Shown here: in pieces, positions 1-59,804 of the stretch | Position numbering within the stretch: the first letter of the stretch is position 1 | How the letters are laid out: each line of letters opens with the position of its first letter | Source of the DNA: Planctomycetota bacterium | Lineage (GTDB): Bacteria > Planctomycetota > Phycisphaerae > Phycisphaerales > Phycisphaeraceae | Direction: 5' to 3' | Length of the DNA: 64,000 nucleotides | Assembly: GCA_021413865.1 (NCBI GenBank) | Contig: JAIOPN010000051.1 | Span: forward strand, 1-64,000 | Translations under genes and position numbers: made by a program | Notes under the pieces: generated by a model | What the model was told of the DNA's origin: nothing | Seen by the model: only the letters and a program-made list of their open reading frames with translations | Databases searched by the model: none

Positions 1-3000
1 GACTTCGCCTTCACGGTGGGCTCGCCGGGCCTGCCCAACGTGACACGGAGCTACGACAGCTTCGAGGATGCGGCGGTGGAGGCGGGGCGTAGCCGCATCT
101 ATGGCGGCATCCACTACGAGTTCACCAACCAGGCCTCGCAGGTGGTGGGGGCAGAGATCGGCAACTGGGTGCTCAACGCCTTCGACATCGCCGAGGACGT
201 GCAGGCGCCCAAGGTCACGGTCGCGGCCCCCCCGGACAACCAGGTGGCGACGACGAACATCACGCTCACGGGCAAGGTGCTTGACAACCTCTCGGGCGTG
301 GCGAGCCTCACCGCCAAACTGGACAACGGGTCGTATGCCGCCGTCGCCTTCGACTCCGCGGGCAACTTCTCGTTGCCAACCAATCTCGCCCTCAATGGCA
401 GCGCCGACGGCAAGCACACCTTCACACTCATCGCCACCGACAACGCGGGCAATGCCTCGGCGCCCCTGGTCTATACGTTCTCCCTCGACACGCAGAACCC
501 GGTCATCACCGTCAGCCTGCCGGGGGCGGGGGCGACGCTCGTGCAAGGCTCCCTGCTCAGCGGCACGGCCAACCCGACGGGGTCAACCCTCGTCAGCCTG
601 AGTTATGTGTTCGATGCGGGCACCCAGCAGGCCGGCTCCGTCATGCCCGTCATCTTCGAGCCGACGACCGGCGCGTTCAGCCAGGTGCTGGATATCTCGA
701 AGCTGGCCGTGGGCGCGCACACGCTGACGGTCACAGCGACCGACGCCGGCGGGTACGTCGCGTCGAGCGTGATCAACGTCACGCTGCCCGAAGCGCCGCC
801 GCTGCGCATCGCCGACCTTACCCCCGCCGACGGGGCGGAGGAGATCGGCGTCACCTACCGGCCCAAGATCACCTTCACCAGGCCGATCGATAAGTCCACG
901 CTCACCACGTCCAACTTCTACGCCACGGACTCCACCGGGCAGGTCATCCCGTCCAACCTGGTCGTCAGCGACGACGGCACCTACGCGGTGCTGCTCTTTA
1001 CAGAGGCGATGCCCGGCGGCTCGACGGTCACGCTGCACGTCAACGGCGACACCATCCTGCCGGCCCCCGGAACTACCGGCGGATCGCTCGATGCGGACGA
1101 CGATGGAATCGCGGGGGGCGTCTTCGAGTCCTCCTTCACCACCGTCAGCCTCGCGCCGCTGACGGGCACGACGCTCTCGGGCGTCGTGGTCGATCCGGGG
1201 ACGGACAAGAAGCCCAATACCTTCGACGACACCCGAGCGGGCGCCGACCAGACGCTGATGACCGCCGACGACGTCTATCTCAACCCGATCGTGCACGCGC
1301 ACGTGTATATCATCGGGTTCGAGGGGGTTGACGGCTTCGACACCTACACCAACGCGCAGGGCCAGTTCAGCTTCGCCACGGTGCCCGCGGGCGACATCAA
1401 GCTGGTGGTCGACGGCCGCACGGCGACCAATGCGCCCAGCGGGGTCTTCTTCCCCGAGATGGTGATGGACCTGCAACTGCTGGCGGGGACCGACAACCAC
1501 GTGATGGACGCGATGGCCCTGACGCTGGGCCACCACACCAACACCGGGGCCAAGGCCACGTTCCTGCCGCGCCTGGCGACGTCCATTCTCAAGCCCGTCA
1601 GCAACAGCGTGCCCACGGTCGTCGTCGCCGACGAGGCCTCGGCCCCGGACCTGTCGCCAGAGCAGCGCGCCCTGCTGACCATCACGATCCAGCCCGGCAC
1701 CGCCATCGGCTTTGATGGCCAGCCGATCGCTAACCCCACGGTCGGCATCGCCACCGTCCCAGCCGAGCTCGTGCGCGAGATGCTCCCGCCGGGGCTCCTG
1801 CAGCACAGCTTCGACATCACCATCCAGGCCCCGGGCGTGGCGGTCTTCAGCATCCCCGCCGCCATCACGTTCCCCAACGTCTTCGGCGCCGCCCCCGGCA
1901 CCAAGCTGAATCTCCTCTCCTTCGACCACACCACCGGCCGGCTTGTGCTCGACGGCACCGCCACCGTCACCGCCGACGGCAAGGCGGTCGTCTCCGACCC
2001 CGGCTCGGGCGTCACCCACCCGGGTTGGCACGGACAACCCCCCCCCGGGGACCCGAATGACGACGATGACGACGACGATGATGACAACAACGACGACAAC
2101 GACAACGACGACGACGGTGACCCGGACGACTCCGACCCGGACGACGACAACGATGGCACGCCCGACGATGGGGACGACGACGACGACAACGACGGCACGC
2201 CGGACGGCGATGAAGACAACGACGGGGACGGGGATCCCGACGACAGCGACCCCGATGATGACAACGACGGCGACCCGGACGACTCCGACGACGACGACGA
2301 CAACGACGGCACCCCCGACGACGAGGAAGACAACGACGGCGACGGCGACCCTGACATCTCCGACCCGGACGACGACAACGACGGCACGCCCGACGCGGGC
2401 GACACCGACGATGATGGCGACGGAACCCCCGACGACCAGGAACAACCCGGCAGTTCACAGACCGCGGACCCGGTCGTACTGCCGATGATCACCGGCCAGC
2501 TCGGCCTGTTCCCGACCCTGGCGTGGAGCGCGCCGGCCAAGGTGGTCTCCGATCCGGCGCCAAAGCAGCAGCCTTACTTGAAGGTGACCATCGACGTGGA
2601 CGGCCCGCTGTCGGACTACATGAGTCCGGCCGGGGACCTGGCGCTGGACTCGCAGACCTTCACCCTCTCCGCCGGTTCGGGCGACACCAAGGTGTTCGGC
2701 GGGTTCGCCAAGCTGTACGACGAGTTGTACGGCCCCGGCGGGATCATGAACCTCAACCGCGACCAGTTGTATGGCTCGAAGGTCAAGATCACCGAGGAGG
2801 CCGGGCAGGCCGGCGGCGCTGTTAATACCACCATCAAGACGTACTACCTGTACCGCTGGGTGGACGTGGTCGATCCCATCCACGCGCAGTTGCAGGACGG
2901 GGCGACCGCGCAGTTCGCCCGGACCCTGGCCGACGGCAGCGGCGGGTTCGTGCGCCAGAAGAACGTGGACGCCCACGTGCCCACGGGCTTCGCGACGGAG

Positions 3001-6000
3001 TTCGAGTCCGGCGACCTGTTGAGCACTGCGTTCGGTTACGGCGTCGGCGTCTCGGGCAGCACGACGGCGACATGGACCTTCGATCCTTACCTGAGCGGGA
3101 AGCGCACCGACACCATCGAGATCCACGCCGAGGGTCTGGACGTGGGCGCGTTGACCGCGCAGGGCACGGCGACGAACAAGACCAAGATCAGCATCAACGC
3201 CGACGGCTACAAGGCAGAACTCGGGCGCGTGATCCAGGCGTTCAAGCCCGCGGTGTTCCCCGGGGCGGACCTGGCGTTCGGCACCGGCGATGACGTGAAC
3301 TTCATCATCTATGACTACGGCGGGGGCGTGGCCAACGGCCGCGTCACCTTTGGGGCCGATGGTCTGCCAGGGGCGGCCGGGGTGGACGACAACGGCGATG
3401 GCACGGTCGACGATTTCAGGGAGTTCGGCAGCGGCGACGACAACACGCGCATCGTCTCGTTCACGTTCCAGGGTGCGTTTGCGTCGGTCATGCCGGGCAC
3501 GGGCTACTCCCAGTCAACCCTCGACGCGGTGCTGAGCGATCAGGCGGCACAGTTGCAGGCGGCCGTTGCGGCAGATTACGCCGGCGTGGCGATGGGTTAC
3601 GAGGTCGTAGCTTCCAACTCCGGGGCTGATGTCACGATGAATTGGAAGGACCTGGGCACGGGCTACTATGGCTTGGCCGATTTTGATCTCGACAAGCCCT
3701 ACCTCGGCGCGTTCCTGGCCACGCCATCGATTGGTGAGGCCGCCAAAGAGATTGCTCTCGCTGAAGGCCTAAACATCAAGGCCAGCAACTCAGGTAATTT
3801 CGCGGTTGGTATCAACGTTTCCGAGAAATCCACCGGTAGTTTTGCGCAGTTCATGGCCAACACCGTCAGCCACGAGCTGGCCCACACATTCGGTGTGTAC
3901 GACGCGTACCTCAATGGCACCGGTGGGGCCACCAACGTCGATCCGCCCAACGACCTCATGCGTGCGGGCAATGATTTTGACGGCGACCTGACTTTCGCCA
4001 CCTTCAACCTCAACATCCTCAAGGCGGCGCAGGGCATTCAGGACAACGGCGATACCCCGCTGACCGCCGACGTGACGCTGTACCGCAACAACTTCAACCT
4101 GCCCGGCAGCGCGACGGGCATCCGTGACGAGACCTCCGTACTGGCGCCGGTGCTGGGCGTGGCCTCGGGTGGCGCGGACCTGCTCCCGGGCCAGACCGTT
4201 GAACTGGGCGAGGCGGTGGCGGACGGCACCGGCGGGGCCCTCATCACGCGCAACGTGACGCTGACGAATACCGGGCTGGCGGACCTGACGCTTGGCTCGG
4301 CGGCACTGACCGGCGGCGCGGCGGGGTTCTCGATCACCAGCGCTTCCGTTGCGGGCACGGTGCTGACGCCAGGCCAGAGCGCGACGGTGACGGTGCGCTT
4401 CGACCCGACCGCCATCGGGGCCTTCGGTGACACGCTGCGCATCACTTCCGACAGTGACGGCGCGACGACGTTCGACGTGCCGCTGCACGCCTCCTCGTAC
4501 GCGCAGGCGGCGACGGCCGTGGCCAAGATCGCGGCTAACAACAACCTCGGCGGCGCCCGCGCCGGGCAGGGGACCAACCAACAGACCCAGGTCTTCACGA
4601 TCAGCAACAGCGGCGCTCAGCCGCTGACGCTCAGTGCCTTCACCTTCGCGCAGGGGGGCGAGCAGTTCGCCTTCCTCGGCCTGCCCAGCGACTTGTCAAC
4701 CAACCCCATCACGCTGGCGCGAGGCCAGTCCTTCACGTTCGGTCTCTCATTCAGCCCGGACGCCACCGGCCTGCAGCGCGCGGCGATCAACGTCGCCACC
4801 AACGACGCGGGGCAGTCGGTTCTTCACCTGGGCGCGGTCGGCACGGGGCTGGCGGGCGTGGTCAAAGCGGACTGGGGCAATGACTACGTCGCGGTGCAGA
4901 TCGGCGACGCGGCCCCGTTGCACACGCGCACCGACGCGGGCGGCGCGTTCCACGTCTTCCTGCCGTCCTTGTCGCGTTACCGCACCACGATCTTCGATCC
5001 GCAGACCCGGCTGGTCGGCATGACGACCGGCAAGACCGGGCCCTCGGGGACGAAGACCTCGCTGGCGCGGGACATGCGCTTCGACGCCAGCACCGCGCCC
5101 GACACCGATTACGACGGTCTGCCCGACGACATTGAGCTGGCGATCGGCTCGGCGCCCAACCGCGCCGACTCGGACAAGGACGGGCTCTCCGACGCCTTCG
5201 AGATCGAGCAGGGCCTGGACCCGTTGGGCGGGCTGGGCATCCCCGTGGGCATCGTGGCCGCGGTCCCGCTGCAGGGCGAGGCCAAGGACATCGTCGTCGC
5301 CGGTTCCACCACCGACCCGGCGGGTCAACTGGCCTACCTCGCGACCGGCTCCAACGGGCTGGCCATCGTCGATGTCACCAACTTCCGCACGCCCGTCGTC
5401 CGCGGCCAGATCACGCTGCCCGGCGGTGGCGTGAGCGTCTCGGTTGACAGCGGCTTGGGCATCGCCGCCGTGGCCTCCACCACGGGCCTCAATCTCGTCA
5501 ACGTGGCCAACCCCGCCAGCCCCGCGCTCCTCCGCACCATCGACTTCGCCGCGGAAAAGGTCGAGGTGTTCGACGGCGTGGCTTACGCGATCGCCGGCTC
5601 GGCGCTCCGCGCTTACGAGCTGACCTCCGGCGAGGAACTCCAGCGGCTGCCCCTGGGCAACAGCATCACCGCCTTCGCACGCGAGGGCGAGACGCTCTAC
5701 ACAGTGGACTCGGCCAATGTCCTGCGCGTCATCGACATCAGCGGGCCGACGGCCGTGCTGCGCGGCTCCCTGACCCTGACGGCCAGCGGCGGCGAGATGT
5801 TCGTGGGCAACGGCCTGGCCTACGTCGGCGCCGAGACGGGCTTCAACGGCGGCTTTAGCGTCGCCAACGTCAGCAACCCCGCCGCGCCCACGCTGGTCAG
5901 CGGCCCCGACCTCACAAGCCTCGCCGGCCGGGCCATCGCGCTCAACGGCTCGGGCCTGGGCGTCTCCGTCGGCAAGCCGGGCAACGGCAACAACGTCCTC

Positions 6001-9000
6001 CACCTCCTCAACACCACCGACCCGGCCAACACCGGCAGCCTCGTCACCGCGATTAATCTCCCGGCGTTCCCGCGCGCCGTCGCCCTGGCGGCGGGCATCG
6101 CGCTGGTCGCCGATGACACAGCCGGTCTGCAGGTGGTCAACTACCGCGACTTCGACAACCTGGGCAACCCGCCGACCGTCACCATCTCCAGCTCCATCGC
6201 CGATGCGGCCCCGGGCACCGACGGGGTGCAGGTCGAAGAGGGCGCGGTCATCCCCATCGCCGGCCAGATCGCCGACGACGTCCAGGTGCGCAGCGTCGAG
6301 GTCCTTGTTAATGGCCAGGTCGTGCGCAACGACGTCTCCTTCCCCTTCGATCTCAACGTGACCGCGCCGCTGCTATCGAGCGGGACGACGGCGATCCGTG
6401 TGGAGGTCCGGGTCACCGACACCGGCGGCAACTCGACGCTCTCGTCGCCGTTGAACTTCGGCGTGATCGCCGACCAGACGCCGCCGACGATCGTCGGCGT
6501 CTTCCCGGCCGAGGGTGTCACGGGCAGCCAGTCCCTGCGCATCATCCGCCTCGACTTCTCCGAGCCGGTCAACCGGGCCACGATCAACGCCTCGACGGTC
6601 AAGCTGCTGGGGTCGGACAACCTGCCCCTGACGCCGACGAGCATCCAGTTCCGCCGCAACGACCGGACGGTGATGCTGACCTACGCCGCGCTGGGAGACG
6701 GGGCGCACCAGGTCCGCGCCAACACCACGGCCATCAAGGACCGCGCGGGCAACGCGGTGGGCGGGGCCGAGTTCGTCAGCAACTTCTCGGTCGGACAGGC
6801 CTCGATCGGCTGGATCAACACCGCCGGCGGCTTCTGGGACGACCCCGCCAACTGGGACGCGGGCCGGGTGCCCGGCGCAAACGACGACGTCATCATCGAC
6901 GTCCCCGGCGACGTCGCCATCACGTTCCGTCAGGGCGATGTGACCATTGCCGGCCTCACGTCGAACAACCCCTTCACCATCACCGGCGGCAATCTAACCG
7001 TCACCGGCACCGTGCAGGTCAACAACACCTTCACGCTCGGCGGCGGCACGCTGCACAACACCCACATCCTCGCGGGCACCGGCGGGCAGGGCGTGACGAT
7101 CGCCGGATCGAACGCCACGCTCGACGGGGTGACGAGCGACGCGAACCTGAACCTGACCACGGCCAGCACCGCGGTCACCATCACCAACGGCCTGACGCTC
7201 AACGGCATCCTGACCCTCGGGGCCAACTACACCCGCGCCGTCTTCAACGGCACGCAGACACTGGGCGGCACCGGCTCGGTGGTGTTCGGTGATTTCTACG
7301 CCAACCCGCTTATCGTCGGGCAGACCGGCACGACGCTGACCATCGGTCCCAACATGACGATCCACGGCGGATCGGCACAGGGCTACGGCGGGCAGATCGG
7401 TTACAGCGATTACTTTGGCGGCGGAAACAACACTTCGATCATCAATCAGGGCACGATCAATGCCGACGTCAACGCCACGGGCCTGACGATCCGTATCCCC
7501 GGCACCGGGACCACCACGAACGCGGGCTCCATGCTCGCCACCAACGGCGGTTCCCTCCGTGTTGACGCCCTCCGCAACCAGGCGGGCAAAACGGTCACCG
7601 CCACCGCGTCCACACTTCGTCTTGAAGGCGCGTGGGACAACGACGGCACGATTTCCTTGACGAACTCCACCCTGAACCTCGGTGGCACGTTTGCCAACGC
7701 CGACATCGGCACGCTCAACCGCACGGGCGGCGCGGTGAACCTGACCGGGGTGCTGACCAATACGGGCGCCACACTGGCGCTCGACGCCGCGACGGGCTCG
7801 TGGAACCTGGCGGGTGGCACCATCGCCGGCGGTACGGTCTCGGCGACCGGCGGCGCGGCGCTGACGGCGACGACCAGCGGCGGAACGCTCGACGGCGTCA
7901 TCCTCTCGGCCGACCTGAACCTGACCACGGCCAGCGCGTTGGTCACCGTCACCAACGGCCTGACGCTCAACGGCGTCCTGACCCTCGGGGCCAACTACAC
8001 CCGAGTGACCTTCAATGGCACGCAGACACTGGGCGGCACGGGCTCGGTGGTGTTCGGCGACTTCTACGCCAACCCGCTCATCGTCGGGCAGACGGGCACG
8101 ACGCTGACCATCGGTCCCAACATGATGATCCACGGCGGGTCGGCGCAGGGCTACGGCGGTCAGATCGGCTACAGCGATTACTTTGGCGGCGGCAACAACA
8201 CCTCGATCATCAACCAGGGCACGATCAATGCCGATGTCAACGCCACGGGCCTGACGGTCCGCATCCCCGGCACCGGGACCACCACCAACGCGGGCTCCAT
8301 GCTCGCCACCAACGGCGGCTCCCTCCGTGTTGACGCGCTCCGAAACCAGGCGGGCAAGACCGTCACCGCCACCGCGTCCAGCCTCCGTCTCGAAGGCGCG
8401 TGGGACAACGACGGCACGATCAGCGTGACCAACTCGACCGTGACTCTAGGAGGCACGTTCGCCACGGGGGACATCGGCACGCTCAACCGCACGGGCGGCA
8501 CGGTCAATCTCACCGGTGTATTGACCAACACGGGCGCCACGCTCGCCCTCAACGCCGCGACGGGCTCGTGGAATCTGGTGGGCGGCACCATCATCGGCGG
8601 CACCGTCACGGCCACCGGCGGAGCGGCGCTGACGGCGACCACCAGCGGCGGAACGCTCGACGGCGTCATCCTCTCGGCCGACCTGAACCTAACCACGGCC
8701 AGCGCGCTGGTCACCGTTACCAACGGCCTGACGCTCAACGGCGTCCTGACCCTGGGCGCCAACTACACGCGCGCCATCTTCAGCGGCACGCAGACGCTCG
8801 GTGGCACGGGTTCGGTGGTCTTCGGCGACTTCTACGCCAATACCCTCAACGTCAACCAGAGCGGCACCGCGCTGACCATCGGTCCCAACATGACGATCCA
8901 CGGCGGTTCCGCTCAAGGCTACGGTGGCCAGATCGGCTACAGCGACTACTTTGGCGGCGGCAATAACATCTCGATCATTAGCCAGGGCACGATCAACGCC

Positions 9001-12000
9001 GACGTCAACGCCACGGGCCTGACGGTCAGGGCCACCGGCACCGGGACCACCACCAACGCGGGCTCCATGCTCGCCACCAACGGCGGTTCCCTCCGTGTTG
9101 ACGCCCTCCGCAACCAGGCGGGCAGGACCGTCGCCGCCACAGCGTCCACCCTCCGCTTCGAGGGGGTCTGGGACAACGACGGCACGATCTCCGTGACGAA
9201 CTCCACCCTCAACCTGGGCGGCACGTTCGCCAATGCCGACATCGGCACGCTCAACCGCACGGGCGGCACGGTCAATCTCACGGGTGTGCTGACCAACACG
9301 GGCGCCACGCTGGCGCTCAGCGCCGCGACCGGTTCGTGGAACCTGACGGGCGGCACCATCCTCGGCGGCACGGTTACCGCGACCGGCGGAGCGGCGTTGA
9401 CGGCGACCACCAGCGGTGGAACGCTCGATGGCGTCATCCTCTCGGGAGACCTGAACCTGAGCACGGCCAGTGCGTTGGTCACCGTCACAAACGGCCTGAC
9501 ACTCAACGGCATCCTCACGCTGGGCGCCAACTACACGCGCGTCATTTTCAGCGGCACACAGACCCTGGGTGGCACCGGCTCGGTGGTGTTCGGGGACTTC
9601 TACGCCAACACCCTGTACGCCAACCAGAACAACACGACGCTGACCATCGGCTCCAGCATGACGGTCCACGGCGGCTCGGCGCAGGGCTACGGCGGTCAGA
9701 TCGGCTACAGCGATTACTTCGGCGGCGGGACCAATGTCGCGCTCGTCAACCAGGGGACGATCAACGCCGACGTCAATGCGACGAGCTTGACGATCAAGCC
9801 CACGGGCGTCGGGACGTTCATCAACTCCGGCTCGCTGCAGGCGACCAACGGCGGGACCCTCAACCTGACCGGGATTTGGGACAACAACGGCACGCTCAGC
9901 GAGACCAATTCGACGCTAAACCTCAACGGCGCTTTCACCACCGCCGACATCGGCACGTTCAGCCGGACCGGCGGCACGGTCAACCTGACCGGCGTCCTGA
10001 CCAATACGGGGAACACGCTGGCGCTCAACACCACGACGGGTTCCTGGAATCTGGTCAGTGGAACCATCATCGGGGGCACCGTCACCGCCACCGGCGGCGC
10101 TGCCCTGACCGCCACAGCCAGCGGCGGTACGCTTAATGGCGTCACACTCTCGACGGACCTGAACCTCACCACGATCAACGCGAACGTTACCGTCACCAAC
10201 GGCCTGACGCTCAACGGCGTGCTCACCCTGGGCGCCAACTACACCCGCATCTACTTCAGCGGCACGCAGACACTCGGCGGCACGGGATCGGTGGTGTTCG
10301 GGGACTTCTACGCCAATAACCTGAACGTCAACCAGGCCGGCAGTACGCTGACGATCGGCTCCGGCATGACGATCCACGGCGGCTCCGCCCAGGGCTATGG
10401 CGGACAGATTGGCTACAGCGACTACTACGGCGGTGGCAACAACGTCTCGATCATCAACCAGGGCGCGATCAACGCCGACGTCAACGCCACGGGCCTGGCG
10501 CTCAGACCGACGGGCACCGGGGTATTCACCAACTCCGGCTCGGCGCAGGCAACCAACGGCGGGACACTGAACCTCACCGGGACGTGGGATAATAACGGCA
10601 CGCTCAGCGAGACCAATTCGACGCTCAATCTCAACGGCGCATTCACCACCCCCGACATCGGCACGTTCAGCCGGACCGGCGGCACGGTCAACCTGACTGG
10701 GGCGCTCACCAACACGGGCAATACGCTCGCTCTCAACACCACGACAGGCTCGTGGAATCTTGCGGGCGGCAGCATCATCGGCGGCACGGTCACGGCGACG
10801 GGCGGGGCGGCGCTTGTGGCGACCACAACGGGAGGCACCCTCAACGGCGTCACACTCTCGACGGACCTGAACCTGACCACGGCCAACACCAACGTCACCG
10901 TCACCAACGGTCTGACGCTCAACGGCGTGCTCACGCTCGGCGCCAACTACACCCGCATCTACTTCAGCGGGACGCAGACGCTGGGCGGCACGGGCTCGGT
11001 GGTCTTCGGCGATTTCTACGCCAATGCCCTGAACGTGAGTCAGAACAACACGACGCTGACCATCGGCTCAAGCATGACGATCCACGGCGGTTCCGCCCAG
11101 GGTTACGGCGGCCAGATCGGCTACAGCGATTACTTCGGCGGCGGGACCAATGTCGCCCTCGTCAACCAGGGGACGATCAACGCAGACGTCAACGCCACGA
11201 GCTTGACGATCAAACCCGCGGGCGTCGGGACGTTCATCAACTCCGGTTCGCTGCAGGCGACCAACGGCGGAACCCTCAACCTCACCGGGACGTGGGACAA
11301 CAACGGAACGCTCAGTGAGACCAATTCGACGTTGAACCTCAACGGCGCTTTCACCACCCCCGACATCGGGACGTTCAGCCGGACCGGCGGCACGGTGAAC
11401 CTGACCGGGACACTCACCAACACGGGCAATACGCTCGCACTCAACACCACGACGGGCTCGTGGAATCTTGCGGGTGGCAGCATCATCGGCGGCACGGTTA
11501 CGGCAACAGGCGGCGCGGCCCTGACCGCCACCGCTACCGGCGGCACGCTCAACGGTGTCACCCTCTCCACGGACCTGAACCTCACCACGATCAACGCGAA
11601 CGTTACCGTCACCAACGGCCTGACGCTCAACGGCGTGCTCACGCTCGGGGCCAACTACACCCGCATCTACTTCAGCGGCACACAGACATTGGGCGGCACC
11701 GGCTCGGTGGTGTTCGGTGACTTCTACGCCAATGCCCTCAGCGTGAATCAGAACAACACGACGCTCACCATCGGCTCCAGCATGACCATCCGCGGCGGCT
11801 CGGCGCAGGGCTACGGCGGCCAGATCGGCTACAGCGACTACTTCGGCGGCGGCGCGAACGTTTCGATCATCAACCAGGGCACCGTGAACTGCGACGTTGC
11901 CACGACTTCGCTGACGCTCCGTGCGGCCGGCACCGGCACTGTTACCAACGCCGGCACCATCCACGCCTCGAAGTGGGCCGTCGCCAGGGTCGTCGGCGCG

Positions 12001-12267
12001 TTCACCAACGGCGTCGCGGGCATCATCTCCCTTGACGTGGCCGGCACGTCGGCAAGCCTTTACGGATCGCTGGCCGTTACCGGCGCCGCCACGCTCGCGG
12101 GAACGTTGCGCGTGAACCTCGTCGATGGCTACGTCCCCGTCGCGGCCAGCACTTTCGATCTGGTGCTTTACTCGTCCGTCACCGGGACGTTCGGGACCAT
12201 CGACGACGGGATCGCGACGCTCAATCCCTCTTACGGCGCGACGAAGCTGACGCTGACGGCATTGTGA
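1..12267 (+). CDS. Giant secreted multidomain protein, 5'-partial (haloperoxidase C-terminus, Ig-like, metzincin, LVIVD, tandem repeats)
   Basis: The frame is open from the first base, so the true start lies upstream; 4088 residues are visible. Residues 13-60 carry an SRIYGGIH motif with surrounding sequence typical of the C-terminal end of vanadium-dependent haloperoxidases (PAP2 fold), where this His (residue 38) ligates vanadate. Then follow Ig-like domains (nt 200-1050), a carboxypeptidase-regulatory-like domain (1160-1510), an Asp-rich stretch (2056-2445), and a metalloprotease region with HELAHTFGVYD at nt 3871-3903, matching the metzincin HExxHxxGxxD pattern. After that come two ASH/choice-of-anchor-D-like domains (4150-4860), TSP3-like calcium repeats (5104-5235), an LVIVD beta-propeller (5240-6150), Ig and SbsA-like domains (6170-6790), and seven long repeats (7108-11970). 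The C-terminus ends in TLTAL with no PEP-CTERM or LPXTG signal. Probable role is a cell-surface or secreted adhesin-like enzyme; the domain calls are by motif only. Confidence 0.85.
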   Translation, partial: DFAFTVGSPGLPNVTRSYDSFEDAAVEAGRSRIYGGIHYEFTNQASQVVGAEIGNWVLNAFDIAEDVQAPKVTVAAPPDNQVATTNITLTGKVLDNLSGVASLTAKLDNGSYAAVAFDSAGNFSLPTNLALNGSADGKHTFTLIATDNAGNASAPLVYTFSLDTQNPVITVSLPGAGATLVQGSLLSGTANPTGSTLVSLSYVFDAGTQQAGSVMPVIFEPTTGAFSQVLDISKLAVGAHTLTVTATDAGGYVASSVINVTLPEAPPLRIADLTPADGAEEIGVTYRPKITFTRPIDKSTLTTSNFYATDSTGQVIPSNLVVSDDGTYAVLLFTEAMPGGSTVTLHVNGDTILPAPGTTGGSLDADDDGIAGGVFESSFTTVSLAPLTGTTLSGVVVDPGTDKKPNTFDDTRAGADQTLMTADDVYLNPIVHAHVYIIGFEGVDGFDTYTNAQGQFSFATVPAGDIKLVVDGRTATNAPSGVFFPEMVMDLQLLAGTDNHVMDAMALTLGHHTNTGAKATFLPRLATSILKPVSNSVPTVVVADEASAPDLSPEQRALLTITIQPGTAIGFDGQPIANPTVGIATVPAELVREMLPPGLLQHSFDITIQAPGVAVFSIPAAITFPNVFGAAPGTKLNLLSFDHTTGRLVLDGTATVTADGKAVVSDPGSGVTHPGWHGQPPPGDPNDDDDDDDDDNNDDNDNDDDGDPDDSDPDDDNDGTPDDGDDDDDNDGTPDGDEDNDGDGDPDDSDPDDDNDGDPDDSDDDDDNDGTPDDEEDNDGDGDPDISDPDDDNDGTPDAGDTDDDGDGTPDDQEQPGSSQTADPVVLPMITGQLGLFPTLAWSAPAKVVSDPAPKQQPYLKVTIDVDGPLSDYMSPAGDLALDSQTFTLSAGSGDTKVFGGFAKLYDELYGPGGIMNLNRDQLYGSKVKITEEAGQAGGAVNTTIKTYYLYRWVDVVDPIHAQLQDGATAQFARTLADGSGGFVRQKNVDAHVPTGFATEFESGDLLSTAFGYGVGVSGSTTATWTFDPYLSGKRTDTIEIHAEGLDVGALTAQGTATNKTKISINADGYKAELGRVIQAFKPAVFPGADLAFGTGDDVNFIIYDYGGGVANGRVTFGADGLPGAAGVDDNGDGTVDDFREFGSGDDNTRIVSFTFQGAFASVMPGTGYSQSTLDAVLSDQAAQLQAAVAADYAGVAMGYEVVASNSGADVTMNWKDLGTGYYGLADFDLDKPYLGAFLATPSIGEAAKEIALAEGLNIKASNSGNFAVGINVSEKSTGSFAQFMANTVSHELAHTFGVYDAYLNGTGGATNVDPPNDLMRAGNDFDGDLTFATFNLNILKAAQGIQDNGDTPLTADVTLYRNNFNLPGSATGIRDETSVLAPVLGVASGGADLLPGQTVELGEAVADGTGGALITRNVTLTNTGLADLTLGSAALTGGAAGFSITSASVAGTVLTPGQSATVTVRFDPTAIGAFGDTLRITSDSDGATTFDVPLHASSYAQAATAVAKIAANNNLGGARAGQGTNQQTQVFTISNSGAQPLTLSAFTFAQGGEQFAFLGLPSDLSTNPITLARGQSFTFGLSFSPDATGLQRAAINVATNDAGQSVLHLGAVGTGLAGVVKADWGNDYVAVQIGDAAPLHTRTDAGGAFHVFLPSLSRYRTTIFDPQTRLVGMTTGKTGPSGTKTSLARDMRFDASTAPDTDYDGLPDDIELAIGSAPNRADSDKDGLSDAFEIEQGLDPLGGLGIPVGIVAAVPLQGEAKDIVVAGSTTDPAGQLAYLATGSNGLAIVDVTNFRTPVVRGQITLPGGGVSVSVDSGLGIAAVASTTGLNLVNVANPASPALLRTIDFAAEKVEVFDGVAYAIAGSALRAYELTSGEELQRLPLGNSITAFAREGETLYTVDSANVLRVIDISGPTAVLRGSLTLTASGGEMFVGNGLAYVGAETGFNGGFSVANVSNPAAPTLVSGPDLTSLAGRAIALNGSGLGVSVGKPGNGNNVLHLLNTTDPANTGSLVTAINLPAFPRAVALAAGIALVADDTAGLQVVNYRDFDNLGNPPTVTISSSIADAAPGTDGVQVEEGAVIPIAGQIADDVQVRSVEVLVNGQVVRNDVSFPFDLNVTAPLLSSGTTAIRVEVRVTDTGGNSTLSSPLNFGVIADQTPPTIVGVFPAEGVTGSQSLRIIRLDFSEPVNRATINASTVKLLGSDNLPLTPTSIQFRRNDRTVMLTYAALGDGAHQVRANTTAIKDRAGNAVGGAEFVSNFSVGQASIGWINTAGGFWDDPANWDAGRVPGANDDVIIDVPGDVAITFRQGDVTIAGLTSNNPFTITGGNLTVTGTVQVNNTFTLGGGTLHNTHILAGTGGQGVTIAGSNATLDGVTSDANLNLTTASTAVTITNGLTLNGILTLGANYTRAVFNGTQTLGGTGSVVFGDFYANPLIVGQTGTTLTIGPNMTIHGGSAQGYGGQIGYSDYFGGGNNTSIINQGTINADVNATGLTIRIPGTGTTTNAGSMLATNGGSLRVDALRNQAGKTVTATASTLRLEGAWDNDGTISLTNSTLNLGGTFANADIGTLNRTGGAVNLTGVLTNTGATLALDAATGSWNLAGGTIAGGTVSATGGAALTATTSGGTLDGVILSADLNLTTASALVTVTNGLTLNGVLTLGANYTRVTFNGTQTLGGTGSVVFGDFYANPLIVGQTGTTLTIGPNMMIHGGSAQGYGGQIGYSDYFGGGNNTSIINQGTINADVNATGLTVRIPGTGTTTNAGSMLATNGGSLRVDALRNQAGKTVTATASSLRLEGAWDNDGTISVTNSTVTLGGTFATGDIGTLNRTGGTVNLTGVLTNTGATLALNAATGSWNLVGGTIIGGTVTATGGAALTATTSGGTLDGVILSADLNLTTASALVTVTNGLTLNGVLTLGANYTRAIFSGTQTLGGTGSVVFGDFYANTLNVNQSGTALTIGPNMTIHGGSAQGYGGQIGYSDYFGGGNNISIISQGTINADVNATGLTVRATGTGTTTNAGSMLATNGGSLRVDALRNQAGRTVAATASTLRFEGVWDNDGTISVTNSTLNLGGTFANADIGTLNRTGGTVNLTGVLTNTGATLALSAATGSWNLTGGTILGGTVTATGGAALTATTSGGTLDGVILSGDLNLSTASALVTVTNGLTLNGILTLGANYTRVIFSGTQTLGGTGSVVFGDFYANTLYANQNNTTLTIGSSMTVHGGSAQGYGGQIGYSDYFGGGTNVALVNQGTINADVNATSLTIKPTGVGTFINSGSLQATNGGTLNLTGIWDNNGTLSETNSTLNLNGAFTTADIGTFSRTGGTVNLTGVLTNTGNTLALNTTTGSWNLVSGTIIGGTVTATGGAALTATASGGTLNGVTLSTDLNLTTINANVTVTNGLTLNGVLTLGANYTRIYFSGTQTLGGTGSVVFGDFYANNLNVNQAGSTLTIGSGMTIHGGSAQGYGGQIGYSDYYGGGNNVSIINQGAINADVNATGLALRPTGTGVFTNSGSAQATNGGTLNLTGTWDNNGTLSETNSTLNLNGAFTTPDIGTFSRTGGTVNLTGALTNTGNTLALNTTTGSWNLAGGSIIGGTVTATGGAALVATTTGGTLNGVTLSTDLNLTTANTNVTVTNGLTLNGVLTLGANYTRIYFSGTQTLGGTGSVVFGDFYANALNVSQNNTTLTIGSSMTIHGGSAQGYGGQIGYSDYFGGGTNVALVNQGTINADVNATSLTIKPAGVGTFINSGSLQATNGGTLNLTGTWDNNGTLSETNSTLNLNGAFTTPDIGTFSRTGGTVNLTGTLTNTGNTLALNTTTGSWNLAGGSIIGGTVTATGGAALTATATGGTLNGVTLSTDLNLTTINANVTVTNGLTLNGVLTLGANYTRIYFSGTQTLGGTGSVVFGDFYANALSVNQNNTTLTIGSSMTIRGGSAQGYGGQIGYSDYFGGGANVSIINQGTVNCDVATTSLTLRAAGTGTVTNAGTIHASKWAVARVVGAFTNGVAGIISLDVAGTSASLYGSLAVTGAATLAGTLRVNLVDGYVPVAASTFDLVLYSSVTGTFGTIDDGIATLNPSYGATKLTLTAL
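2056..2445 (+). repeat. Asp/Asn-rich low-complexity linker encoding DDDNDGTPD/DPDDSDPDD-type repeats
   Basis: About 130 consecutive codons are almost entirely Asp, Asn, Gly, Pro and Thr, in irregular units such as DPDDDNDGTPD and DPDDSD. These resemble thrombospondin type 3 calcium-binding loops. The stretch joins the N-terminal Ig/regulatory domains to the protease region, so a calcium-rigidified spacer is the likely role (inference). Its composition also opens long antisense reading frames that are not genes. Confidence 0.85.
7108..11970 (+). repeat. Seven tandem long repeats: 256-residue spacing then 236-residue spacing
   Basis: The shared segment GGQIGYSDY recurs with its Tyr codon (the Y before S) at nt 7402, 8170, 8938, 9706, 10414, 11122 and 11830. 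Spacing is exactly 768 bp three times and then exactly 708 bp three times. The 60 bp difference is a 20-residue segment (between TNGGSLRVD and LRLEG) present in the first three units and absent from units 4-6. DNA similarity between units is visibly high. Each unit is rich in G, T, N and hydrophobic beta-strand-like residues, suggesting beta-solenoid coils. The last unit degenerates into a unique C-terminal domain. Confidence 0.95.
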
Positions 12268-16661: not shown

Positions 16662-16832
16662 GCCTTGACAGCGCACGGCGCTCGGCGGCGACCGTGGACG
16701 GCTGAAGACCGTCGCCGTCAGGATTCTCGCATTTTATCTGGATCGGATTTCGGGGAGGGGGCAGCGCTAGACCCAACCAGAAGCCGATCCAGGTGCAATG
16801 GTAGGATGGCCTTCCCGGCAAGGAGTACCCGC

Positions 16833-18182
16833 GTGGCCACCGCCCCTGTAGGCCTGTTCACCGGGCCGAGCAACGTGACGATCCAGGCGATGATTGACGC
16901 CGCGGCGGGACGCGGCGGCGGCGTGGTGCGCGTGCCTGCCGGGGTGTACATGCTCAATGACGCGGTGCACCTGCGGCCGGGTGTGCGCGTCGTCGGGGCG
17001 GGCCGGGGCGCGACGGTCCTGAAGAAAATCCCCAGCATTGCCAGCCGGATCACCGACTACCTGGGCTACGGGCACTACGAGTTCACCGTGGACGAGCCGG
17101 AGAAGTTCCACGCCGGCATGGGCGTCCACATTTACGACAAGAGCGCGTTCGGCTTTTACACCACGGTCGCGACGGTCATCGAGAAGCGCGGCCGTCTGCT
17201 ATTCATCAACCGGCCGTTGGCGCATGATTACAGCGGCGGTAACGGCGGCTTCGCGGTCAGCGCCTTTTCCTGCGTCGAGGGCGAGCACGCCGACGACGCC
17301 TCGCTCGAGGACCTCACGCTCGACGGCAACAGTGAAGAGGAAACCGTGAACCTCACCGGCTGCCGGGGCGGTGGGGTGTTCCTCATCATGTGCAACCGCG
17401 TGGCGTTGCGCGGCGTGGAGGTCCGCAGTTTTCGCGGCGACGCCGTCAGTTTCCAGCAGTGCACCGACATCACCGTCGAGTCCTGCGACATCCACCACAA
17501 CAGCAACTCCGGCCTGCACCCGGGCAGTGGCACCGTCCGTTACGTCATGCGCCGGAACCACTCGCACCACAACGGCACGTTCGGCCTGTTCTACTGCCTC
17601 CGCACTTCGCACTCCCTCTGCGAGGAGAACACCCTCGAACACAACGGCGAGTCGGGTATCTCTGTCGGCGAACGCGACACCGACCACCTGATCCAGCACA
17701 ACACCGTGCGGCACAACGGCGGGCCCGCGATCGAGTTCCGACCGGTCAACCATGAGGGGGGTGACCGCGTGCGGATCGTAGGCAACACGCTGGGACCCGA
17801 TTGCGCGACGCGCGGCGGGGCGGAGGTGATGATCCCGGCACGGCTGCGCGACATCCACATGGAGGGCAACACGTTCACCGTGCCCCCGGGCCGCAGCGCC
17901 GTCTCTCTCAAGCCCGGCTGTGAGCGCGTCAGCTTCGTGGGCAACACCGTCGATGGCCGGTCACAGCAAGCGGGGGACGTTGTCGTCCCCGCCGAATCGC
18001 CCGACGATCCCAAGGCCACGTGGGATAAGCCCAACCAGGGCTCCATCCCCGCATTGGGGCCGGCGACCGACGTGCTCCTGCATGCGCCGACTCCCTTGCC
18101 ACCGGTCGGCCCCGCCGCGCTGCCATTGGACGGCGCCAAACATCTGTCGATTGACCGGTTGTCCGCATGGAATAAGGTGTGA
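16833..18182 (+). CDS. Right-handed parallel beta-helix protein (pectate-lyase-like fold)
   Basis: The 449-residue product starts TAPVGLFTGPSNVTIQAMID and then shows GGGVVRVPAGVYMLNDAVHL, the classic entry into a pectate-lyase-type beta-helix. Multiple coils with N-rich turns follow (for example VESCDIHHNSNSGLH, HSLCEENTLEHNGESG). No signal peptide is seen. I chose the GTG at 16833 because AAGGAG lies 7 bases upstream; the open frame extends to 16665 but that part looks non-coding. Likely role is polysaccharide binding or cleavage; substrate unknown. It is the only plus-strand cargo gene of the left part of the island. Confidence 0.75.
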   Translation: MATAPVGLFTGPSNVTIQAMIDAAAGRGGGVVRVPAGVYMLNDAVHLRPGVRVVGAGRGATVLKKIPSIASRITDYLGYGHYEFTVDEPEKFHAGMGVHIYDKSAFGFYTTVATVIEKRGRLLFINRPLAHDYSGGNGGFAVSAFSCVEGEHADDASLEDLTLDGNSEEETVNLTGCRGGGVFLIMCNRVALRGVEVRSFRGDAVSFQQCTDITVESCDIHHNSNSGLHPGSGTVRYVMRRNHSHHNGTFGLFYCLRTSHSLCEENTLEHNGESGISVGERDTDHLIQHNTVRHNGGPAIEFRPVNHEGGDRVRIVGNTLGPDCATRGGAEVMIPARLRDIHMEGNTFTVPPGRSAVSLKPGCERVSFVGNTVDGRSQQAGDVVVPAESPDDPKATWDKPNQGSIPALGPATDVLLHAPTPLPPVGPAALPLDGAKHLSIDRLSAWNKV

Positions 18183-18322
18183 TGATGCGTGGAGTCGCCG
18201 ACAAAGACGCGATCCTTCTCCGCCCCGGTGCACCATACATGCCTCGGACGAGACGTGCCGCGCCGCTGAACGACACGGGGACGGAGTGTTGAAGAACTCT
18301 TCAAGCCGCAGGCGGCTATCGC

Positions 18323-20284
18323 TTACCCCTGCGGGCCGCTGATGGTCGCCTGCTCGACCTTTGGCAGTTCGCCCGGGTGCATGTGCCAGTAGGTTTCCCA
18401 TCTCCGGTTGCCCCAGTCGAGGACTAGGGTCTGGCCCTCGTGGTAAATCTCCACGCGGCGTCGGCGGCGGGCCTCGACTTTCACACGAGCCCATTTCGCG
18501 TCGGCGTCCGCGGCGGAGCCGCCGGTCATCAGCGCCGTGACGAAGAGCGTCGGGTCGTAGCTAGTATCGCTGCGCATTGTGAGGTGCTTGAGCTTACCGG
18601 TGGTGTCGGGGTGGCGTTGCTGGAGGCCCTCGTGCTCGCCGACGGACATGGCGATCCCGTGGTCGCCCAGCCCGGGCGTGAAGAGGGGGACGACCGGGCG
18701 GACCAGCAGCGCCGCGCCGGGGCGCGTGAACATGGCGTCGTAGGTGCGGAGCTGGATGTCGCACGACGTGTGGAGGCGGGACTCGACGGCGGTGCCGATG
18801 TACTGGTGATGCGCCGTCTCGCCGCGCACCTCATCCACGAGGATCACCAGCCCGGGCCGCATCAGGAAGAAGAAGCGGTTGTAGAGCCGGAGCCTCGGGT
18901 GGTCGTAGGCGAAAGTGAGGTCCATCTTCACCATGTCGAAGGTGGGCCGGGTGACAAACTGCGTGACCATCGAACGGCGGAGTTCCTGCGGCGGCTGCTC
19001 GGAGCCGTCGAAGGTGAGGCAGTTGTGAGCGATGGTGCGCTTGATGAGCGGCTTGCCGCGGTGGTAGTCCCGGGAGTAGTTGCCGATGCCCGGTTCGGTG
19101 ACGAGTTCGACGCCGTGGGAGGCGAGGAGGAAGGTGCCGCAATCCCAGTGCTGGTGGCCACCGGCGACGGAGCCCGCCTTGGCGGCCAGCGCGACGGCGT
19201 TGGGGTTGTTCCAGTCCTCGCGCATGATGGTCCAGCCGATGTCGGGCCAGGAGCGAGAGGGGGGATCGAAGGAGGCGGCACGTGGGGTGACGGAGGGGTC
19301 GCGCCAGAGGATGGCCATCGGCCCGCCGTGGCCGAAGCGGTCGGTCAATTCTTGGAGGTCGCCCCGCTTGGTGAGAGCGGCGCGGCGGTAGAGGACGGGG
19401 CCCGCACCGCCGTCGGCGGGGTTGTCCCCGAAGGCGACCTGACGGGTAGGCGTGAGCATGGTGAAGAGGAAGAAGTCGTCGAGGGCGGCGGGGCCGGGGT
19501 GGTCGGCGAGCCGTCTGTCGCCGGCGTTGGCGAGGGCGTCGAGAAAGACCTGGCCGTAGGAGAAGCCGTAGATCGCGTAGCCGTGGCCCTCGCGCCAGGA
19601 CCCGGTGGGGTGGATGTGGTCGTAGCTGCGCTGGAGGTGGCCGGCGGCGGTCTCGACGGCGGCACGGGTCTCGCCGGACCGTTCGGGGAAGATGGCCAGT
19701 GTGGCCGCCCCCATGCCCCCGAGCGTGACGAAGCTCCAGTTGCCGTCGTGCGCCCAGGACCACCACTGGCGGTCGATGGTCTCGGGCAGGATGAAGGCGG
19801 TGGCGTGTCGGAGGATGGCGTCCTGCACATTGCGGCGCAACTCTGGCGCGAGCTGGTCATAGAGCAGGTCGTAGGCGAGCGCGGTCTCGAGGGCGGTGTG
19901 GGCGGTGGTCAGGTCGGCCGGCAGCGGTAGGTGGACGGGGGCTCGCCAGAACTCCCAACGGGCGAGCTCGGCCAGCGCGTCGGTGGCACGCTTGATCCAT
20001 TTAGCATCATGTTCGGCGTGCCAGGCAACAGCCGCCCCCAGCGCCGCGTGTGAGAGCGGTCCGATCAGGGAATAAAAGGCGACGGGCGGGTCGATCAGTC
20101 CGCCGGGCGGACAGGTAGGCAGCGGTTTGGAGAAGGTCTCTTCGAGCAGCGTGAGCATCGCCTTGAAGGCGGACTTCGTCGGCTCGATTGCCGCGCGGCG
20201 GGGCAGGTCGGCGAGCGTCGCCCGGTCGATGAGGAAGGGGTGCGTGAGGGAAGGGGAGAGTATGAGTTTGATGCGGTCGGACAT
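18323..20284 (-). CDS. Heparinase II/III family polysaccharide lyase
   Basis: The 653-residue product has an N-terminal alpha-helical toroid region (residues ~40-370) and then the beta-sheet Heparinase_II/III-like region. Visible hallmarks are GHQHWDCGTFLLASHGVEL, EPGIGNYSRDYHRG and IAHNCLTFDG, equivalent to the His-containing motifs of PL12/PL17-type lyases. The family cleaves uronic-acid-containing glycans by beta-elimination. No signal peptide is obvious, so a cytoplasmic oligouronide lyase is possible. The start is the ATG at 20284 (MSDRIKLIL); the open frame runs 49 codons further upstream without family-like sequence. It is the last gene of the minus-strand cargo run. Confidence 0.85.
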   Translation of the reverse strand: MSDRIKLILSPSLTHPFLIDRATLADLPRRAAIEPTKSAFKAMLTLLEETFSKPLPTCPPGGLIDPPVAFYSLIGPLSHAALGAAVAWHAEHDAKWIKRATDALAELARWEFWRAPVHLPLPADLTTAHTALETALAYDLLYDQLAPELRRNVQDAILRHATAFILPETIDRQWWSWAHDGNWSFVTLGGMGAATLAIFPERSGETRAAVETAAGHLQRSYDHIHPTGSWREGHGYAIYGFSYGQVFLDALANAGDRRLADHPGPAALDDFFLFTMLTPTRQVAFGDNPADGGAGPVLYRRAALTKRGDLQELTDRFGHGGPMAILWRDPSVTPRAASFDPPSRSWPDIGWTIMREDWNNPNAVALAAKAGSVAGGHQHWDCGTFLLASHGVELVTEPGIGNYSRDYHRGKPLIKRTIAHNCLTFDGSEQPPQELRRSMVTQFVTRPTFDMVKMDLTFAYDHPRLRLYNRFFFLMRPGLVILVDEVRGETAHHQYIGTAVESRLHTSCDIQLRTYDAMFTRPGAALLVRPVVPLFTPGLGDHGIAMSVGEHEGLQQRHPDTTGKLKHLTMRSDTSYDPTLFVTALMTGGSAADADAKWARVKVEARRRRRVEIYHEGQTLVLDWGNRRWETYWHMHPGELPKVEQATISGPQG

Positions 20285-20455
20285 GGGGGACGATTGTAAT
20301 GGGGTTGGTCCTCTAGTGGACTTGACTCCACGCCGTTCCATTGAGTTTTTTGTCTGATGCAATCCAAGCCATAGCAACTGCCGGTTCATGAAGTATCGGC
20401 AGCAATTTCTCCTTGGTGTGTGGAGGCGCAAGTGAACAGAACAAGAACACCGCCA

Positions 20456-22651
20456 TCAGCGCTGCTGACGGGACGCCTGTGACTCCTTGACCGGAATCTG
20501 CACCTCGCCGATCCTGAGGAACCAGGGGACAAATGGGCTGTTGTAGCCAAGGTATCGTGGCGGGCCAACGGCCTGATAAAGACCGGCTTTGTCACTGAGA
20601 TACGCCGTCAGCTTGCTCAGCGCCGAGTCGAAGTTCTTCGTGTTGTAATTGCCGCGAACGCCAACGGACACGACGGTCATTGCCGGCACGTCGACTACAT
20701 CGACGGCGCCATCGGCGCCGGGCTTCCCCCACTCCGGCTGGCCGTAGAGGAACGCCATGGCGACGGGGCGCGAGGAACTTGGCGTTGCCGAAGCCGGTTT
20801 CGTGGCGGGGGTGGTGTTTTCGATGAGTTCTGTGGACGACTCGTAGGTCATCTCAACCGGTGCGGTCATCGTGATGCCGTTCTTCTTGATGTGCTTGAAC
20901 AACACGCCGAACATCGAGCTCTGCTGGGCGCGCTCGTTCTGCGCGCGGTCCTGGCGAACAACAGCGGCGCGGTATGCAGGGTAGTTCTTGACGATTACGG
21001 CCCCCACCGGCCCAGGCGCGGGGAAGCCGCGCGGCAGATTGGCTTCGTTGATGGCAAATGGGGCTTTCATGGGTGCTTGTGTCTCCGCGGGGATAGGCTG
21101 GGTTGCAGCCCGAGGCGATTCCATTTTCGACGCGCACGACAGGAGTAACGAGCCGACGGCGAATCCACACACGAGGAACAGCACGGCTGTGGGTCGCGTG
21201 GCCGCGATTTTCGATGAGACCCTGGCGGCATCGCGGGCGATGCCGCCGAGCATCCCGCGGAACACGAAGCCGTGAAACGGCAGCACCGCGTACCAGTACG
21301 CCAGGCCCGCCAGTCCACGTGGCCGGAACCGAGCCGTCTGGGTCAGGCAGGTTCCGCCGTGCCGCCCGGGGGTGAGTTGGAACTCCAGCATCGCTTCGCC
21401 GGGCAGTTTCATTTCGGCACGGAGCGTTAGCCGTCGTGGGCTGTCCACGCCTGTGACGCGCCAAAAATCCAGCGCATCCCCAAACGCCAGGTGTTCCGGG
21501 TGCCGCCGGCCGCGGCGCAGCCCCGGGCCCCCGATGAGCCGATCGATCATGCCGCGCAGTCTCCAGAGCCAGTCGGCGGCGTAATAGCCGTGGCCGCCGC
21601 CAACCTTGCATACCGCCGCGAAAACCGCATCCGCGGGGGCCTCGATATCGACGCTACGCTCATCGGTGAACACGGTGCCGCCGGCCCAGTCCGGGTCGCC
21701 GGGGATCACCCCCGCGTCTGTCCACGCGGTCGAAATGTCATTAGCGTTCACCTTCACCAGCGCCGCGGCGATCGCCTCGCGGACACCCAGCAGCGGCTGG
21801 GGCATCAGTTGAGCGGCCCTGTCGTCGCGGCAGACCACGCGATTGCGGAGCCCCTCGGCAAGCGGTCGTGCGATCCGCGCGCTCACCGGCGTCACCAGGT
21901 GAATCCACAGCGAACTGAGCCGAGGGGTCAGCAGCGGCACCGGGATCACCCACCGCCGCCCGAGCCCCAGTTCATCCGCGGTGATTTCCATCAGCCGGCG
22001 ATACGTCACCACCTCGGGGCCGCCGATGTCGAGCGTCTGCCCCGCAGTTGCCGGGGTCGTTAGACAGGCGAGCAGGTATTGCAGCACGTTGCGGATCGCG
22101 ATGGGCTGGCTTTCGGTGTTGACCCAACGCGGCGTGATCATCGCCGGGAGCCGCTCGACCAGGTAGCGCAGAATCTCGAACGACGCCGAGCCCGAGCCGA
22201 TGATCATCGCGGCGCGGAGAACGGTGACCGGGACGGGCGTTGAAGAAAGACACGCCTCGACTTCGCGGCGCGAAGCCAGGTGCTCGCTCAGGTTGCCGCC
22301 GAGTTCTCCCAGGCCGCCGAGATAGATGATCCGGCCTACGCCGGCCCGCTCGGCGGCCCGGGCAAAGGTTTGCGCCAGATGGCGATCGCGCTGGGCGTAG
22401 TGTCGTCCCGTCACTTCCATCGAGTGAATGAGGTAATAGGCCGCTTGGCACCCCTTCATCGCCGTTGCGACGGCGTCCTCGTTGGTGAGATCGATCTCAA
22501 TGGTTCTCACGCGGGTATCGCCGCTCCACGGCCGGGAGGCGAGCTTGCGTTGACTCCGCACCAGGCAAACCACCTGGTGCCCCGCCTCAAGCAGCAGCGG
22601 AACCAGCCGGCCACCGACATAGCCCGTCGCTCCCGTCACTACCACCTGCAT
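20456..22651 (-). CDS. NAD(P)-binding SDR / DUF2867 / SOUL haem-binding fusion protein
   Basis: The 731-residue product starts MQVVVTGATGYVGGRLVPLL, an atypical-SDR Rossmann motif (residues 1-320), followed by a DUF2867-like region (~330-490) including AADWLWRLRGMIDRLIGGPG. Then comes a hydrophobic stretch ending in SLLLSC (Cys506), which looks like a complete lipoprotein signal peptide, and a SOUL-type domain (~540-731) with KKNGITMTAPVEM and YNSPFVPWFLRIGEV. In other bacteria the first two domains and the SOUL domain are separate proteins, so this may be a fusion by loss of a stop codon. GAAGGGAG lies 7 bases upstream of the chosen ATG. Possible haem- or lipid-linked redox role. Confidence 0.8.
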   Translation of the reverse strand: MQVVVTGATGYVGGRLVPLLLEAGHQVVCLVRSQRKLASRPWSGDTRVRTIEIDLTNEDAVATAMKGCQAAYYLIHSMEVTGRHYAQRDRHLAQTFARAAERAGVGRIIYLGGLGELGGNLSEHLASRREVEACLSSTPVPVTVLRAAMIIGSGSASFEILRYLVERLPAMITPRWVNTESQPIAIRNVLQYLLACLTTPATAGQTLDIGGPEVVTYRRLMEITADELGLGRRWVIPVPLLTPRLSSLWIHLVTPVSARIARPLAEGLRNRVVCRDDRAAQLMPQPLLGVREAIAAALVKVNANDISTAWTDAGVIPGDPDWAGGTVFTDERSVDIEAPADAVFAAVCKVGGGHGYYAADWLWRLRGMIDRLIGGPGLRRGRRHPEHLAFGDALDFWRVTGVDSPRRLTLRAEMKLPGEAMLEFQLTPGRHGGTCLTQTARFRPRGLAGLAYWYAVLPFHGFVFRGMLGGIARDAARVSSKIAATRPTAVLFLVCGFAVGSLLLSCASKMESPRAATQPIPAETQAPMKAPFAINEANLPRGFPAPGPVGAVIVKNYPAYRAAVVRQDRAQNERAQQSSMFGVLFKHIKKNGITMTAPVEMTYESSTELIENTTPATKPASATPSSSRPVAMAFLYGQPEWGKPGADGAVDVVDVPAMTVVSVGVRGNYNTKNFDSALSKLTAYLSDKAGLYQAVGPPRYLGYNSPFVPWFLRIGEVQIPVKESQASRQQR

Positions 22652-26380: not shown

Positions 26381-26526
26381 GATTGAAGCTCGTGTGGGAA
26401 TAAGGATGGGCCAAGGGAGTGTTCCCGGGCATGAGTTCCGGGACCGTGCCGGGGAGCGATCGCAGCGTAACGATCAAGCCTTGACCGGTCGATCCGGCCA
26501 ATCACAGATCACCCGCATCGCGCGGC

Positions 26527-56590: not shown

Positions 56591-59430
<2,840 letters not shown>

Positions 59431-59691: not shown

Positions 59692-59692
59692 T

Positions 59693-59799: not shown

Positions 59800-59804
59800 T
59801 TTTT

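Follow-up and report, generated by a model that had tools for sequence, protein, structure and literature searches.

A gene for a giant protein of a Planctomycetota bacterium that joins a vanadium haloperoxidase end to a metzincin-like peptidase domain

The window examined here, a stretch of 64,000 nucleotides that opens contig JAIOPN010000051.1 (C32, 105,076 bases) of a Planctomycetota genome (order Phycisphaerales; G000; 4.37 Mb in 67 contigs), begins with one frame of 4,088 residues in which the end of a vanadium haloperoxidase (VHPO) and a metzincin-like metallopeptidase domain are followed by a beta-propeller and a stalk of long repeats. A preliminary description of this DNA had claimed an open frame of at least 4088 residues, and positions 1-12267 of the forward strand are indeed stop-free; the giant haloperoxidase and metzincin-like frame is thus confirmed as an observation, and its interpretation as an oxidative enzyme and a protease on one protein is supported by what follows. 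The combination of VHPO and peptidase is a conserved, modular architecture across phyla, and the 3' four-fifths of the gene, whose giant product is probably exported, would lie in the window.

The features of the frame are collected in Table 1. The preliminary description had listed a haloperoxidase C-terminus SRIYGGIH, which lies at residue 31 in a stretch resembling both PDB entry 4cit and VHPOs of the same order; a zinc site HELAHTFGVYD, which lies at residue 1291; calcium-type linkers, recovered as an Asp-rich linker at residues 684-812; an LVIVD propeller, which exceeds its Pfam cut-off, as do the Big_5, Big_7 and HYDIN/ASH domains; and seven repeats of 236-256 residues, whose anchor occurs seven times at spacings of 256, 256, 256, 236, 236 and 236. 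Pairwise identity among the seven repeats is 75-94%. The C-terminal cap has no barrel, no recognised sorting signal and no Pfam match over cut-off, and Pfam scans found no C-terminal translocator barrel of the autotransporter (type V) kind.

Table 1. Features of the giant frame (window positions unless stated otherwise)
Feature	Position	Strand	Evidence
VHPO N-terminal half	G000:C45 bases 1-699	-	outside window, runs off C45 base 1
VHPO C-terminal end	1..183	+	phmmer to 4cit; same-order VHPO identity; alignment
Two Ig-like (Big) domains after VHPO	193..795	+	Big_7 and OmpL47-type matches; colinear with homologues
Chassis block: Big_5, carboxypeptidase-regulatory-like, unnamed domain ending DPGSGVTHPGWHG	802..2049	+	alignment
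Asp-rich linker, TSP3-like DDDNDGTPD units	2050..2436	+	74/129 residues Asp
Metzincin-like metallopeptidase domain, interchangeable middle cassette	2575..4095	+	homologue identity over entire domain
Zinc-site motif HELAHTFGVYD, Asp at third-ligand position	3871..3903	+	alignment
Met-turn NDLM (residue 1317)	3949..3960	+	NDIM/NDVM/DIM in homologues
Two HYDIN/ASH-type Ig domains	4249..4785	+	Pfam PF22544, two stretches, E = 2e-11 to 2e-14
Bacterial TSP3 repeat (DTDYDGLPDDIELAIGS...)	5101..5166	+	PF18884 E = 0.02, below cut-off; same stretch in homologues
LVIVD-type beta-propeller	5218..6165	+	PF08309, three stretches, E = 3e-11
Big_7 and Big_5, closing conserved core	6217..6786	+	PF17957, PF13205
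GGFWDDPANWDAGRVPGANDD module	6808..7020	+	common to G261 and Rhizobium homologues
Seven repeats, 256 or 236 residues	7150..12015	+	anchors at residues 2455, 2711, 2967, 3223, 3459, 3695, 3931
C-terminal cap (SLAVTGAATLAGTLRVNLVDGYVP...TGTFGTIDDG)	12028..12264	+	sequence; G261 end similar

Because the first base of the window is also the first of C32, the absence of an N-terminus is an assembly effect. When the complete VHPO of a relative (L013) was searched against the window's own genome, exactly two places were found, C32 7-195 and C45 1-666 (reverse strand), both of which a PAP2 Pfam search had missed. The frame on C45 runs for 1,044 residues from its ATG through the motif LEPRVLLTN, a CARDB domain and Big_13 domains into the VHPO, where it matches 4cit residues 186-267 (E = 1e-7). 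The preliminary description had left it to the upstream sequence whether the haloperoxidase is complete; its N-terminal half is present on C45, and intact homologues hold the entire domain. In seven complete VHPOs (five fused, two stand-alone) the stretch between the two pieces measures 105-106 residues. Since the pieces are complementary across a gap of this length, C45 and C32 very probably carry one gene of about 5,200 residues (~1,044 + 105 + 4,088), a join that we infer from sequence. BLASTP against G765, an intact single-frame homologue, aligned C45 638-1070 with G765 1289-1713, C32 1-678 with 1820-2492 and C32 823-2268 with 2522-4022, all colinear. Foreign origin of C32 within the bin was considered and rejected, as its sulfatase shares 81% identity with one in the same family, which indicates that C32 belongs to the lineage. 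The Ramlibacter, G765 and G010 proteins score above the cut-off of the LEPR-XLL model (NF012209); the window's own protein does not, and its LEPRVLLTN on C45 was recognised by eye. Near the N-terminal region of the VHPO giant on C45 is a second giant Big-repeat protein (L026, 6730-11601, reverse strand; 1,623 aa) with a LESRALLS motif.

The part of the VHPO inside the window is short and has no Pfam VHPO/PAP2 match. Its residues 10-67 match the C-terminus of 4cit (398-453; phmmer E = 0.0015), and across residues 2-61 identity to full-length VHPOs of the order is 51-58%. SRIYGGIH carries the equivalents of R490 and H496 (Curvularia numbering) at window residues 32 and 38, and the other five of the seven vanadate residues fall in the assembly gap of ~105 residues. 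The intact Ramlibacter homologue has a VHPO that aligns with 4cit (E = 2.8e-47) and with Curvularia chloroperoxidase (E = 1.5e-14), and gives only a trace match to acid phosphatase (E = 0.24); as read from the alignment, equivalents of K353, R360, S402, G403, H404, R490 and H496 are all present. His stands where Curvularia has F397, in Ramlibacter and in the Acetobacteraceae proteins, as it does in algal bromoperoxidases, so that activity on bromide or iodide is predicted. All intact fused VHPOs, which come from several lineages, retain the vanadate motifs. A tree built with 25 Phycisphaerales stand-alone enzymes, to which cyanobacterial, Streptomyces, Phaeobacter and Rhizobium ones were then added, placed all giant-protein VHPOs in one clade (UFBoot 99) with stand-alone proteobacterial VHPOs thinly sampled; that of the window falls with those of Ramlibacter and Acetobacteraceae (support 83 and 89).

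Scanning a peptidase alignment against about 85,000 species genomes yielded eight loci, five of which are single open frames with both a complete VHPO and the peptidase: a frame of at least 4,673 residues reaching the contig end in Ramlibacter paludis XY19, frames of 6,837 and 7,584 residues in a Rhodospirillales and a Rhodocyclaceae MAG, and one frame in each of two Acetobacteraceae MAGs. Other proteins with both domains, for which the preliminary description had proposed a search, therefore exist in these five intact cases. By BLASTP the window protein is colinear with the proteobacterial homologues from the Big domains before the VHPO to window residue 2268, beyond which the stalks differ. 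The presence of this layout in intact genes of unrelated bacteria marks it as a modular device that they share, not an accident of sequencing. The peptidase also occurs without VHPO, in two Phycisphaerales proteins (L071, L072) and in G010; two VHPO pieces of G010 (C352, C327) were examined as parts of a giant protein and rejected, since they resemble a stand-alone VHPO with a PEP-CTERM-like tail. Within the order, 68 of 400 genomes have a VHPO, and of the places listed, giant frames contain only those of G000 and G261. Among 392 Planctomycetota genomes the window's own was the only one in which the full peptidase domain was found, as was Ramlibacter among 300 genomes of its order; searches of viral contigs returned no relatives, and searches of plasmids no peptidase relatives. 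A short CARDB-VHPO fusion of 541 aa was seen on a plasmid of Nostoc sp. ATCC 53789 (L162, 11668-13293). Searches of open-licence literature turned up no account of a VHPO that is part of a giant multidomain protein or is joined to a protease, which is weak evidence of absence.

The 507-residue peptidase domain shares 40-50% identity with its five proteobacterial homologues and 22-31% with two Phycisphaerales ones. HExxH and the following Gly are conserved in all eight rows of the alignment, as is a downstream Met-turn, and the window has the full HExxHxxGxx(H/D) zinc motif, with the Met of NDLM 19 residues after the third-ligand Asp. Asp stands at the third-ligand position of the window protein and of those from Ramlibacter, Acetobacteraceae and Rhodospirillales; the Rhodocyclaceae and UBA9295 proteins have Glu there, and ARS65 and G010 have His. 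In PF06262 members the motif reads HExxHxxGxxD, with Asp often replaced by Glu; Asp is a known third ligand in Asp-zincins, and snapalysins keep a Met after the third ligand (PMC3890501). The window domain falls under every Pfam cut-off (Reprolysin_3 E = 0.04-0.09, Zincin_1 E = 0.06-0.13; M43 and M66 likewise), the best Reprolysin_3 score being 14.9 bits against a cut-off of 22.4, and such sub-cut-off matches recur across the family (Reprolysin_3 in 7/8 members, Zincin_1 in 6/8). Profile comparison by hhalign with 19 Reprolysin_3 proteins gave 92%, but over the 22-column active-site helix only, and 21 reversed or shuffled controls gave at most 2.5%. A phmmer search of PDB returned chance matches only, and a profile search reached adamalysin/ADAMTS at E of about 0.65 and above, which is suggestive only. 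AlphaFold models had pLDDT 34 (single sequence) and 46 (eight sequences), both too weak to use; Foldseek gave no significant match and was counted neither way. The metallopeptidase fold proposed earlier around HELAH was thus not refuted: motif, Met-turn and helix profile match speak for it, whereas the fold itself was not recovered. As no family cut-off is reached and no structure prediction is usable, the label 'metzincin' rests on the motif, the Met-turn and weak profile matches.

The peptidase occupies an exchangeable slot. The chassis block (Big_5 to GWHG) was found at full length in seven places in 6 of 400 genomes of the order (G000, G010, G012 twice, G025, G261 and G297), also without VHPO. 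The slot after it holds the peptidase in the window protein and G010, a GDSL/SGNH-hydrolase-like domain in one G012 protein (L010, G012:C44 1-1548, reverse strand; IGDSYSSGEG, E = 0.002, below cut-off), an AGA-YXIM galactose-binding-like domain in G025 and the other G012 protein, and, in G261 and in a Rhizobium phaseoli plasmid protein that has relatives in R. etli and R. beringeri, modules of ~300 residues that match no Pfam entry. The Rhizobium plasmids and the Phycisphaerales genome G261 thus combine VHPO and chassis with other middle modules. Within the fused clade, the VHPOs of the Rhodocyclaceae protein, which has the peptidase, and of the Rhizobium proteins, which lack it, form sister branches (support 100), and the cassette has therefore been exchanged or lost. 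It looks as though a VHPO was incorporated a single time into a giant chassis, which was later shared between phyla with a swappable neighbour domain. The three Rhizobium plasmids (R. etli, R. phaseoli and R. beringeri; L159, L160 and L161) are closed, and the R. etli giant gene is annotated as two overlapping reading frames. In G025 a TGA (L064, C401 14257-14259) breaks the chassis giant gene between its GWHTPDP block and the next part.

Taken as a whole, the proposed chain would start from a LEPR-type N-terminus and run through CARDB and Big domains, the VHPO, further Big domains and the chassis to the cassette, and from there through HYDIN-type Ig domains, a TSP3 repeat, the LVIVD propeller and Big domains to the repeat stalk. 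Such a protein would be exported and remain at the cell surface or close to it; the earlier term 'surface fibre' is plausible in view of the LEPR-type N-terminus and the Ig stalk. Nothing links the gene to the type I related module with a secondary SecA (PMC4452313), which was considered as a possible export route. VHPOs convert halide and H2O2 to hypohalous acids (PMC8407465, PMC11871015), and a macroalgal VHPO disrupts quorum-sensing signals (PMC8407465). The VHPO here would do this chemistry beside the cell, while the metallopeptidase, with zinc ligands that are probably His/His/Asp, might mature the fibre itself or cut nearby proteins; maturing the chain, releasing the VHPO and attacking neighbours are all conceivable, with processing slightly favoured. 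The benefit would likely be local chemical defence, signal destruction or peroxide disposal in surface life. To this reading, an exported surface giant whose VHPO makes hypohalous acid and whose peptidase processes the fibre or nearby proteins, we assign a probability of roughly 60%.

Three other explanations bear on this reading. That the ends of C45 and C32 come from separate genes, leaving the window gene without a complete VHPO, would fit their lying on separate contigs with no sequence spanning the gap, but the genome has only these two VHPO pieces, which are complementary, do not overlap, leave a gap of the expected length and are colinear with the same intact homologues, so that we consider this very improbable. 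The enzyme domain might instead act on phosphate esters in the manner of PAP2 phosphatases, with which VHPOs have fold and pocket in common and from which the Pfam domain takes its name; this too seems improbable, if less so, as the best matches are specifically to VHPOs (E = 3e-47 for 4cit and 1.5e-14 for the chloroperoxidase, against only 0.24 for acid phosphatase).

A more substantial rival, which we nevertheless find unlikely, is that the protein is mainly an adhesin or matrix protein whose haloperoxidase-like and peptidase-like domains are non-catalytic binding or structural modules. Ig-like domains, propeller and repeats make up most of its length, other modules stand in for the peptidase cassette in Rhizobium and G261, and the third zinc-ligand position varies; against this, the vanadate motifs persist in all intact fused VHPOs of several lineages, and HExxH and the Met-turn in all peptidase homologues. 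A purely structural role would not need these residues, and their conservation therefore counts against it.

The surroundings of the gene would fit a surface-held VHPO in a bacterium that may live on polysaccharide surfaces. At window positions 16665-27825 a heparinase II/III-like enzyme, a sulfatase and large beta-helix proteins are encoded close together, and this clustering suggests polysaccharide breakdown. Elsewhere in the window, a single ORF (20456-22681, reverse strand) combines an NAD-binding domain, DUF2867 and a SOUL haem-binding domain, and 23S and 5S rRNA genes are found at 56591-59800 (forward strand); as 16S is absent from the window, the rRNA genes may be unlinked.

Known bacterial VHPOs are for the most part small enzymes that stand alone. 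If active, the VHPO described here would be a surface-held source of hypohalous acid, relevant to biofilm defence, to quorum quenching and to life on the surfaces of algae or plants; the Ramlibacter paludis isolate and the closed Rhizobium plasmids offer testable hosts of the design, and a peptidase family with His, Asp or Glu at its third-ligand position would be a natural test of how far metzincins tolerate ligand change. A broader view, which we hold tentatively and at somewhat less than even odds, is that these proteins form an undescribed modular family of giant surface proteins, spread between Planctomycetota, Alpha- and Betaproteobacteria, in which a tethered halogenating enzyme is paired with an exchangeable cassette (the peptidase or unknown modules, and a GDSL-like hydrolase in VHPO-free relatives), the peptidase being a new metzincin subfamily in which the third zinc ligand has changed among His, Asp and Glu.

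Among characterized systems, the Zobellia VHPO (4cit/4usz) and Curvularia chloroperoxidase (1idu/1vnc) have the same domain over about 370 residues, and their vanadate-pocket residues are all shared by the intact Ramlibacter homologue; the solved enzymes, however, are lone chains of 458-609 residues, whereas the window VHPO is embedded in a giant multidomain chain. LEPR-XLL giants (NF012209) have in common with the window gene the LEPRVLL N-terminal motif, giant size and extracellular-type modules. A metzincin in such a giant is precedented by a Vibrio protein of about 8,000 residues with RTX and serralysin domains (PMC10868602), from which the window gene differs in its VHPO as front enzyme, in a peptidase of another, unnamed subfamily and in its stalk. 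Metzincins and Asp-zincins (reprolysin-like M12B, snapalysin M7, PF06262 Zincin_1) share HExxHxxGxxD/H and a downstream Met with the window peptidase, which differs in being a domain of ~500 residues with a large N-terminal region that matches no named family. A further comparison is with WP_190299964.1, a Rhizobium phaseoli plasmid product annotated as 'Ig-like domain-containing protein', which has a complete VHPO and the same chassis (50% identity to window residues 1-678 and 41% to 1626-2351) and carries, in place of the peptidase cassette, its ~300-residue module at the same position.
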